The notes beneath the pieces were generated by a model. The model made no database searches. It saw nothing but the letters and a program-made list of their open reading frames with translations, and was not told where the DNA came from. A stretch of 24,959 nucleotides of DNA from a virus, in IMG/VR virus record IMGVR_UViG_3300018416_000108, positions 1 to 24,959 of that record. One strand, given 5' to 3'. Below are positions 181 through 14,659 of the stretch, piece by piece. Both the position numbers and the translations under genes were made by a program. Each line of letters begins with the position of its first letter. Positions within the stretch are counted from its first letter, which is position 1.

Positions 181-204
181 TTCCTATCTCCTATTTAAGT
201 TTTT
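178..204 (-). repeat. repeated leader/RBS block, copy 1
   Basis: On the minus strand this reads AAAAACTTAAATAGGAGATA followed by GGAAATG. It matches the copies before 13355 and 14232 base for base, including the start codon. It supplies the AGGAG ribosome binding site of the gene starting at 180. Confidence 0.9.
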
Positions 205-209
205 AAAGT

Positions 210-229
210 GGGAGCTATTTCTAGCTCCC
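210..229 (-). repeat. GNRA-tetraloop hairpin after stop codon
   Basis: On the minus strand GGGAGCTA-GAAA-TAGCTCCC forms an 8-bp stem with a GAAA tetraloop, eight bases after the TAA of the gene at 238-657. It has no U-tract, so it is not a standard terminator. It may stabilise a 3' end or mark an RNA processing site. The identical hairpin is at 14183-14202 on the plus strand. Confidence 0.85.
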
Positions 230-3458: not shown

Positions 3459-3481
3459 AACATTCTCCTATTTAAGTTTTT
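3456..3481 (-). repeat. repeated leader/RBS block, copy 3
   Basis: Minus-strand AAAAACTTAAATAGGAGAAT followed by GTTATG. The core is the same as in the copies before 13355 and 14232. It provides the RBS of the first gene of the leftward recombination operon. Confidence 0.85.
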
Positions 3482-12711: not shown

Positions 12712-12770
12712 TATTTTTTAATAGCTATATAAATCAAACACTTACAGACTAAATAAAGTATATAAAAAAG

Positions 12771-12798
12771 TTGCATATATAATCTAATTATATATAAT
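12771..12798 (+). promoter_or_regulatory. moron promoter with AT palindrome in spacer
   Basis: TTGCAT (12771-12776), a 16-base spacer and TATAAT (12793-12798), followed by AGGTTTT. The spacer with its flanks reads as the inverted repeat ATATATAAT-CTA-ATTATATAT. The same arrangement, including AGGTTTT, is found at 13946-13973. Confidence 0.8.
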
Positions 12799-12805
12799 AG
12801 GTTTT

Positions 12806-12825
12806 ATAAGTTAATAACAACTTAT
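12806..12825 (+). promoter_or_regulatory. inverted repeat in the 5' leader
   Basis: ATAAGTT-AATAAC-AACTTAT can form a 7-bp hairpin just after the probable transcription start. A related block, GTTGATAACAACTTAT, lies in the leader of the minus-strand gene at 657 (685-700). It may be an operator or a 5'-UTR hairpin. Confidence 0.5.
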
Positions 12826-12827
12826 AT

Positions 12828-12854
12828 AAAAACTTAAACAGGAGATAGGAAATG
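12828..12854 (+). repeat. repeated leader/RBS block, copy 4
   Basis: AAAAACTTAAACAGGAGATA followed by GGAAATG. It differs from the copy at 13331-13357 by one base (C for T). It sets the start of the gene at 12852. Confidence 0.9.
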
Positions 12855-13250
12855 AATTGCCAAATTAAATACATAGAGAGTGGAGTAGATGTAATAACTG
12901 ATAGCTATTTATTAGATATGTTACTTGAAACCGACAAAACAACACTCACAAAATTATCAGAGAAATATATGCGTGATGATAAAAGAGTTATAGATGAAAA
13001 TAGAGCATATATAGGAAATAAAAGGGACTATGCTTATACATATAAGACTGTTGAATGTGATAGCTTTGAGGAATTGTTTGAAAAATATAATAAGATTTTA
13101 CACAAGGGAGCTAGAATATATGTGGAAGGCTGGTCTAATGATTTCATAGTTATGCAACAAGGTATGGAAAAAAGAGATTCAGAAATAGAATATTGGGAAA
13201 CAAACTATAAGACCAGTAAAGCTGGAGAATTTTTAACAGTTGAAAGATAA
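12852..13250 (+). CDS. hypothetical protein (132 aa)
   Basis: Unrecognised 132-residue mixed alpha/beta protein with a readable core (ECDSFEELFEKYNKILHKGARIYVEGWSNDF). It is the first gene of the rightward moron cassette, with its own promoter at 12771 and a near-consensus leader and RBS. It is followed by a GNRA hairpin and then the hammerhead ribozyme, so its mRNA should receive a defined 3' end by self-cleavage near 13283. No motif points to a function. Confidence 0.75.
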   Translation: MNCQIKYIESGVDVITDSYLLDMLLETDKTTLTKLSEKYMRDDKRVIDENRAYIGNKRDYAYTYKTVECDSFEELFEKYNKILHKGARIYVEGWSNDFIVMQQGMEKRDSEIEYWETNYKTSKAGEFLTVER

Positions 13251-13258
13251 TTTTAACA

Positions 13259-13276
13259 GGGAGCAGAAATGCTCCC
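13259..13276 (+). repeat. GNRA-tetraloop hairpin after stop codon
   Basis: GGGAGCA-GAAA-TGCTCCC, a 7-bp stem with a GAAA tetraloop, eight bases after the TAA of the gene at 12852-13250. No U-tract follows; the hammerhead ribozyme begins two bases later. After ribozyme cleavage it would protect the 3' end of the upstream RNA. Confidence 0.88.
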
Positions 13277-13278
13277 AC

Positions 13279-13327
13279 CTGTCCTAGAGTGTGTGCTCTA
13301 GCTGACGAGTTCAAAAGAACGAAACAG
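13279..13327 (+). ncRNA. hammerhead ribozyme (type III topology)
   Basis: All core elements occur in order. The stem III 5' strand CTG and U16.1 precede C17 (13283), the predicted cleavage site. Stem I is CTAGAG-tgtgtg-CTCTAG (13284-13301), a perfect 6-bp hairpin. The core CTGACGA (13302-13308) fits CUGANGA. Stem II is GTTC-AAAA-GAAC (13309-13320) with the preferred G10.1:C11.1 pair. GAAA (13321-13324) and the stem III 3' strand CAG (13325-13327) close the junction. Stem III is short: three pairs plus U16.1-A15.1. No core base is missing. The element lies in the intergenic region between the GNRA hairpin and the leader/RBS of the next gene. Self-cleavage is inferred, not shown. Confidence 0.92.
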
Positions 13328-13330
13328 AAT

Positions 13331-13357
13331 AAAAACTTAAATAGGAGATAGGAAATG
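13331..13357 (+). repeat. repeated leader/RBS block, copy 5
   Basis: AAAAACTTAAATAGGAGATA followed by GGAAATG, starting three bases after the 3' end of the hammerhead. Identical to the copies at 178-204 (minus strand) and 14208-14234. Confidence 0.9.
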
Positions 13358-13546
13358 ACAAATTATAAATTTATGACAGCAGAAGAAGTAGAAGATACTA
13401 TTGATAGAGCAGTTGAAAAAGCAATGGCAGAAATCAATAAGATTGATTTAAACCAATGGGAAAGTGATGGGTGTGGTTTAGCTATGGCACTTGATGGATT
13501 ATTACGAAATCAAGTTTTAGACCAAATAGAACATTTTGCAGATTAA
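13355..13546 (+). CDS. hypothetical small protein (63 aa)
   Basis: Unrecognised 63-residue protein, acidic and probably helical (FMTAEEVEDTIDRAVEKAMAE...). The start is fixed by the conserved leader. Its mRNA would begin with the 3' product of the hammerhead (5'-OH at 13284), so its translation could depend on ribozyme processing. A GNRA hairpin follows the stop codon. Confidence 0.7.
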   Translation: MTNYKFMTAEEVEDTIDRAVEKAMAEINKIDLNQWESDGCGLAMALDGLLRNQVLDQIEHFAD

Positions 13547-13552
13547 TTAACA

Positions 13553-13570
13553 GGGAGCAGAAATGCTCCC
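13553..13570 (+). repeat. GNRA-tetraloop hairpin after stop codon
   Basis: GGGAGCA-GAAA-TGCTCCC, identical to 13259-13276, seven bases after the TAA at 13544-13546. No U-tract and no ribozyme follow this copy. Confidence 0.88.
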
Positions 13571-13884: not shown

Positions 13885-13895
13885 GAGGAACTTGA

Positions 13896-13920
13896 GGGCT
13901 AGAAATAGCCCTTTTTTTTT
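13896..13920 (+). terminator. rho-independent terminator
   Basis: GGGCTA-GAAA-TAGCCC with nine Ts. The preceding block GCTAAGAGGAACTTGAGGGC closely matches the one before the terminator at 14633, so the whole terminator unit is duplicated. Confidence 0.92.
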
Positions 13921-13945
13921 ATCTAAAAATAATTATATAAAATAC

Positions 13946-13973
13946 TTGCATATATAATTAAATTATATATACT
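13946..13973 (+). promoter_or_regulatory. moron promoter with AT palindrome in spacer
   Basis: TTGCAT (13946-13951), a 16-base spacer and TATACT (13968-13973), then AGGTTTT. The spacer and flanks form the inverted repeat TATATAATT-A-AATTATATA. It lies right after a terminator, so it restarts transcription for the gene at 14016. Confidence 0.8.
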
Positions 13974-13990
13974 AGGTTTTGTTATTTAAT

Positions 13991-14018
13991 AAAAACTTAA
14001 ACAGGAGATAGAAAAATG
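13991..14018 (+). repeat. repeated leader/RBS block, copy 6
   Basis: AAAAACTTAAACAGGAGATA followed by GAAAAATG. Same core as the other copies, one base longer before the ATG. Confidence 0.88.
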
Positions 14019-14182: not shown

Positions 14183-14202
14183 GGGAGCTAGAAATAGCTC
14201 CC
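14183..14202 (+). repeat. GNRA-tetraloop hairpin after stop codon
   Basis: GGGAGCTA-GAAA-TAGCTCCC, 8-bp stem, eight bases after the TAA of the acidic gene. Identical to the copy on the opposite strand at 210-229, some 14 kb away. Confidence 0.88.
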
Positions 14203-14632: not shown

Positions 14633-14659
14633 AGGGCTGGAGACAGCCCTTTTTTTTTT
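14633..14659 (+). terminator. rho-independent terminator
   Basis: AGGGCTG-GAGA-CAGCCCT followed by a run of ten Ts. GNRA loop (GAGA). It closes the moron island and insulates it from the protease-capsid operon. Confidence 0.92.

Follow-up and report, generated by a model that had tools for sequence, protein, structure and literature searches.

A type III hammerhead ribozyme behind a 3′ hairpin at an intercistronic junction of an uncultured marine phage: a probable mRNA processing cassette

Results

Genomic setting of the hammerhead

The window, that is, the whole stretch of DNA analysed, has 24,959 bases and is an IMG/VR virus record from an uncultured marine phage. The phage is AT-rich and tailed, with genes for a terminase, a portal, a head protease and an HK97-type capsid. 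The minor head gene is separated from the head protease by two small operons of unassigned genes. The hammerhead lies in the first of these, between gene A and gene B and exactly between a hairpin and the leader AAAAACTTAAAYAGGAGA, which is common to genes of the window (8 copies); the second operon has its own intrinsic terminator at 14633 (Table 1).

Table 1. Features around the hammerhead, in window coordinates
Feature	Position	Strand	Basis or remark
Promoter-like region	12751..12824	+	Repeat family D4; second copy at 13926-13999, 84% identical, ahead of second operon
Gene A, 132 aa, upstream cistron	12852..13250	+	ORF; 45% homolog in L011
3′ hairpin GGGAGCAGAAATGCTCCC, 7 bp, GAAA loop, no U tract	13259..13276	+	Direct reading
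Type III hammerhead ribozyme	13279..13327	+	Direct reading, RF00008 alignment, covariance models
C17, nucleotide 5′ of predicted cut	13283	+	Alignment to RF00008 and own covariance models
Loop 1 TGTGTG	13290..13295	+	Conserved TGWGTG in viral class (104-sequence alignment)
Loop 2 AAAA	13313..13316	+	Conserved NAAA in viral class (104-sequence alignment)
Shared leader with ribosome-binding site AAAAACTTAAATAGGAGA	13331..13348	+	8 copies in window, 0.25 expected by chance
Gene B, 63 aa, downstream cistron	13355..13546	+	ORF; 75% homolog in L031
Intrinsic terminator, end of operon A-B-C	13894..13921	+	Counterpart at 14633 in second operon

Genes A and B had no confirmed relatives in a scan of the viral contig collection and one relative each among the hammerhead loci, in L011 and L031, respectively. 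A hairpin and a hammerhead variant likewise follow the gene A homolog, while the gene B homolog has one hammerhead before it and one after it. The same scan returned three homologs of gene C, all without a hammerhead nearby, and a DNA similarity comparison of the window region or its 51-mer with cultured phages gave no match. The earlier note had described the genes on either side of the hammerhead as morons, a description that fits small open reading frames in promoter- and terminator-flanked operons, although no function was found for them.

The leader of the accessory genes at 12.8–14.6 kb is also shared by minus-strand genes at the left end of the window (187–229, 664–681, 2099–2116 and 3464–3481), and their hairpin is present at 210–229 on the minus strand. 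As a side observation, the leader, together with the hairpin at 210–229, looks like a common regulatory dress for accessory genes.

Structure of the element

Direct reading of the element bore out the earlier note in its coordinates, its stem lengths, the full type III core and the assignment of C17 to 13283. The open stem III (4 bp) pairs CTGT (13279–13282) with ACAG (13324–13327), stem I (6 bp) pairs CTAGAG (13284–13289) with CTCTAG (13296–13301) around the loop TGTGTG, and stem II (4 bp) pairs GTTC (13309–13312) with GAAC (13317–13320) around AAAA. Type III hammerheads are defined here by the core C3U4G5A6N7G8A9, G12A13A14, A15.1–U16.1 and H17, and all of it is present, as CTGACGA at 13302–13308, GAA at 13321–13323, the A13324–T13282 pair and C13283. 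The covariance model alignment gives the type III stem order, with stems I and II loop-closed and stem III open. Judged from its sequence, 13279–13327 is a complete type III hammerhead, in which loop 1 and loop 2 are probably in tertiary contact. The predicted cut falls between C13283 and C13284; by analogy with the known chemistry of the family, Mg2+-dependent self-cleavage there would generate a 2′,3′-cyclic phosphate and a 5′-OH.

The minimum free energy (MFE) structure of the isolated 55-mer does not display the full hammerhead fold, which lies 3.0 kcal/mol above it (family median 2.1). In the uncut RNA, CCUGUC (13278–13283) is predicted to pair with GAUAGG immediately ahead of the gene B start codon. 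The idea that this pairing hides the ribosome-binding site was discarded; L031 lacks the pairing, which is therefore probably due to chance.

Scored against the Rfam hammerhead models, a check named in the earlier note, the element was found by the type III family RF00008 with 24.5 bits (E 0.0015; query of 121 bases, 4227 families), although it did not reach the gathering score of 48.5. This score is a detection threshold rather than a structural definition, and most other tested copies with intact core and covarying stems miss it too; at gathering, Rfam gave two matches in ten loci with such hammerheads. We built two covariance models, the first on 104 copies and the second on 54 hammerheads, with the window and its close relatives (phage family) left out of the second. 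With this second model the window element scored 70.9 bits (E = 5e-18) and the runner-up site in the window 9.5 bits; the 25 kb record holds one hammerhead copy. About two matches per window to the short motif CTGANGA..GAAA are expected by chance and, such matches being common, the evidence lies in the whole structure and in the relatives.

The viral hammerhead class

Viral contigs were scanned with a pattern comprising the 3′ half of the core and the ends of stem II, stem I being unconstrained. Among the matches listed, at least 119 of them distinct, 115 of 119 completed the full hammerhead (98 type III and 17 type I, with 4 that were neither). Of the 76 matches to a type I-like pattern, 71 were type I hammerheads and 4 were type III. 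The scanner found no type II hammerheads in the same contigs. The covariance model adds further copies at weaker scores, and several contigs hold 3–5 copies. In the type III alignment (104 sequences), 98.1% of the cells are paired and 499 double changes were counted versus 138 after shuffling; part of this covariation is built in because the scanner requires paired stems, whereas the diversity of pair types is not. Stem I of the close relatives L303 and L069 differs by compensatory changes. Core-disrupting changes in homologous phages had been named in the earlier note as evidence against its reading; 147 of the 148 type III copies keep an intact core. Sequence and covariation together establish the hammerhead structure.

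A codirectional upstream gene ends at most 90 nt away from 130 of the 148 type III copies, with its stop at a median of 32 nt before the element; on the other side, the median distance to the closest downstream start is 24 nt. These distances are approximate because the gene calls are simple open reading frames. Structural genes as favoured neighbours were ruled out, since the flanking genes are mostly unassigned and those with a name are accessory: gamma-glutamyl cyclotransferase, glutamine amidotransferase, AAA/VWA proteins, HNH endonuclease and anti-restriction proteins.

Some copies depart from the window element in form. The first pair of stem II is U-U instead of G-C at L011:8233–8285, L029:3083–3133, L031:147–197 and L069:8018–8068; this form, CTGATGA-TNNC-NAAA-GNNT-GAAA, recurs in many phages, where its inner pairs covary. 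U-U at this position is possibly a natural core variant, and the U-U versions in the relatives may cleave slowly. Type I phage hammerheads (for example in L138, L163, L165 and L212–L289) start where the upstream gene stops: its stop codon either ends directly before C3 or sits in CTGA. The search pattern partly favours this placement, which is nevertheless also present in copies that it did not select. One cultured phage has a perfect type I hammerhead, at L211:7995–8049 (Cellulophaga phage phi18:3, KC821620, at about 21.9 kb), within an unannotated gap some 0.9 kb ahead of ardA; it offers a laboratory test system.

The upstream hairpin depends on the hammerhead type

The hairpin in front of the window element stands 2 nt ahead of stem III and 7 nt ahead of the predicted cut. 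An identical copy lies behind the next gene at 13553–13570, none being expected by chance, and hairpins of the form GGGAGC(t)aGAAAt(a)GCTCCC without a U tract stand behind several window genes (13259, 13553 and 14183). Among type III copies, 108 of 136 (79%) have a GC-rich hairpin directly upstream, 91 of these 108 at 0–2 nt; at that spacing the predicted tail past the hairpin is 5–7 nt, and 7 nt in the window. Type I copies have an adjacent upstream hairpin in 18 of 153 cases (12%), none at 0–2 nt. Shuffled sequences gave a background of 5–6%; dinucleotide shuffles in a previous form of the test gave 12% for type III. After clustering by flanking DNA, with the ribozyme masked and longer matches required, the hairpin was present in 28 of 47 type III groups versus 0 of 50 type I groups (p 4e-12); within the 13 contigs holding both types, it was found at 9 of 14 type III versus 2 of 29 type I copies. 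About a fifth of the type III copies have no simple adjacent hairpin by the criterion used, and many of those scored as hairpin-less revealed an interrupted or long-loop hairpin on inspection.

The type rule follows from topology: in a type I hammerhead the closed stem III remains with the upstream product and ends one base short of the cut, whereas in a type III it cannot. The product expected from both types is thus an upstream mRNA that carries a hairpin close to a short 3′ tail. Hairpins occupy 62 of 70 type III junctions, compared with 90 of 249 other codirectional junctions in the same contigs (36%), and therefore have some role of their own at junctions without a hammerhead. Transcription termination by the hairpins at hammerhead junctions was ruled out, as only 1 of 62 has a U tract.

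A hairpin core, GTGTCTTCAAAGACAC, stands behind genes with and without a hammerhead in L083, L088, L093, L095, L103, L104, L109, L112, L121, L178 and other contigs, and is possibly a protein-binding or end-protecting element. Type III hammerheads of the same sequence class also occur on contigs labelled Patescibacteria, Polynucleobacter and uncultured bacteria (L202–L210); most of these have no hairpin upstream, and the coupling may therefore be chiefly a property of phages.

Modularity among relatives

The combination of hairpin, hammerhead and leader recurs in L031, L091, L125, L189 and L303, with different genes wherever the genes could be compared. Hairpin and leader also meet without a ribozyme, with only a few bases between them, in the window at 14183 and in L007 and L023. 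Modular placement between hairpin and leader, and a 3′ end of the upstream gene just behind the hairpin, had both been proposed from the window alone; the relatives agree with the former through this cassette and its ribozyme-free counterpart, and uphold the geometry predicted for the latter.

Discussion

We regard the element as a probable module for intercistronic mRNA processing that gives rise to a protected 3′ end. The cassette would have two parts, a stable hairpin right after gene A and then the type III hammerhead, which is predicted to cut the A-B-C transcript between C13283 and C13284. The gene A mRNA would then end in the hairpin, a 7-nt tail and a 2′,3′-cyclic phosphate. Exonucleases need a minimal length of 3′ tail, below which a tail is too short for them. 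The gene A end should be hard for 3′–5′ exonucleases to attack, because these require a free single-stranded 3′ overhang (PMC10503654) and PNPase requires a 3′-OH as well (PMC3014915). The gene B mRNA would carry its 5′-OH buried in stem I, 71 nt ahead of the start codon, and should resist 5′-monophosphate-dependent decay. The output conserved between type I and type III phage hammerheads would be the hairpin-capped 3′ end of the upstream mRNA, whose protective purpose we infer from this geometry. Several points weigh against this reading: the RF00008 score under the gathering cut-off, the U-U stem II versions in relatives, the roughly one fifth of type III copies that have no simple hairpin next to them, and the hairpins at 36% of the junctions that have no hammerhead.

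The hairpin might instead be a folding aid, stacking on the short open stem III or blocking misfolding with upstream RNA, with 3′ protection incidental. Its tight spacing to stem III (0–2 nt in 91 of 108) would suit this role, as would an open stem of only 4–6 bp and a hammerhead fold that is not the MFE structure. We nevertheless consider it unlikely, given that the open stem I of type I elements is equally short and AT-rich while a hairpin accompanies only 18 of 153 of them, none at 0–2 nt, and that ribozyme-less genes in the same phages also have hairpins behind them. With similarly low probability, the main purpose could be the downstream mRNA, either through a structured 5′-OH leader that escapes 5′-dependent decay or through a freed ribosome-binding site. 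Type III topology does put stems I and II at the 5′ end of this mRNA, and the median distance to the start codon is 24 nt. However, the 5′ end left by type I elements of these phages is unstructured; the output that the two types have in common is therefore the 3′ hairpin and not structure at the 5′ end.

Far less plausible is the excision of a gene-sized RNA by paired hammerheads, followed by its ligation into a circle: although two hammerheads flank the gene B homolog in L031 and several contigs carry 3–5 copies, the window has one copy, a circle has no need for a 3′ hairpin, and the passages searched in Perreault et al. 2011 (PMC3088659) report that a spliced or circular product was not found. 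That the element is a chance resemblance or a dead relic, as its RF00008 score under the gathering cut-off might suggest, is hardly credible in view of the E value of 5e-18 with the second covariance model, the strong covariation, the compensatory changes in L303 and L069, and the core kept in 147 of 148 copies.

With RF00008 the window element shares the CUGANGA/GAAA/NUH core, three stems in type III order and loops 1 and 2 of a putatively interacting type, and differs in its 4-nt stem II loop, its UGWGUG loop 1 and the extra hairpin in front, reaching 24.5 of 48.5 bits. Like RAGATH-1 (RF03152) and the type I hammerheads (RF00163), it belongs to a self-cleaving class found near phage genes, and type I copies sit beside type III copies in the same contigs. 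The window element is type III, however, whereas in type I copies, which begin at the upstream stop codon, stem III itself serves as the 3′ hairpin. RNase III processing sites in phage T7 early mRNA also divide a polycistronic RNA into mRNAs with structured ends; there a host protein enzyme cuts and the end chemistry is different, whereas the window carries a self-cleaving RNA.

The closest precedent is that of Perreault et al. 2011 (PMC3088659), in whose searched passages prophage hammerheads flank genes, often several per genome, with variable accessory genes including ardA nearby, are active in vitro and in E. coli, and have been proposed to divide the long transcripts of the phage into smaller mRNAs. 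The intergenic position between codirectional phage genes is common to those hammerheads and the window element; their arrays place several close together, whereas the window has one copy, L031 two and other contigs up to five. A fixed upstream hairpin, its coupling to the ribozyme, a type dependence and an exchangeable hairpin/leader cassette do not appear in the passages searched. No report of hairpin–hammerhead coupling was found in the open-access literature searched. The window element is one more member of a known hammerhead kind, while the composite cassette and the type rule appear new.

A 2017 review lists the role of prokaryotic hammerheads among the open questions of the field (PMC6155905), and the opposite hairpin rule of type I and type III offers a specific, testable answer, namely protected mRNA 3′ ends. 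Because standard annotation overlooks most of this hammerhead class, maps of phage transcripts that attribute RNA ends to host nucleases may be in error. The hairpin–hammerhead cassette also provides a natural template for gene insulation in synthetic operons. We give about even chances to a wider reading, in which these elements represent a general, RNA-only maturation of phage mRNA 3′ ends: a hairpin, either separate (type III) or stem III itself (type I), would be left with a tail too short for exonucleases, and the cassettes would be mobile between accessory genes. The findings suggest that these phages trim their own mRNA ends with RNA instead of host enzymes.
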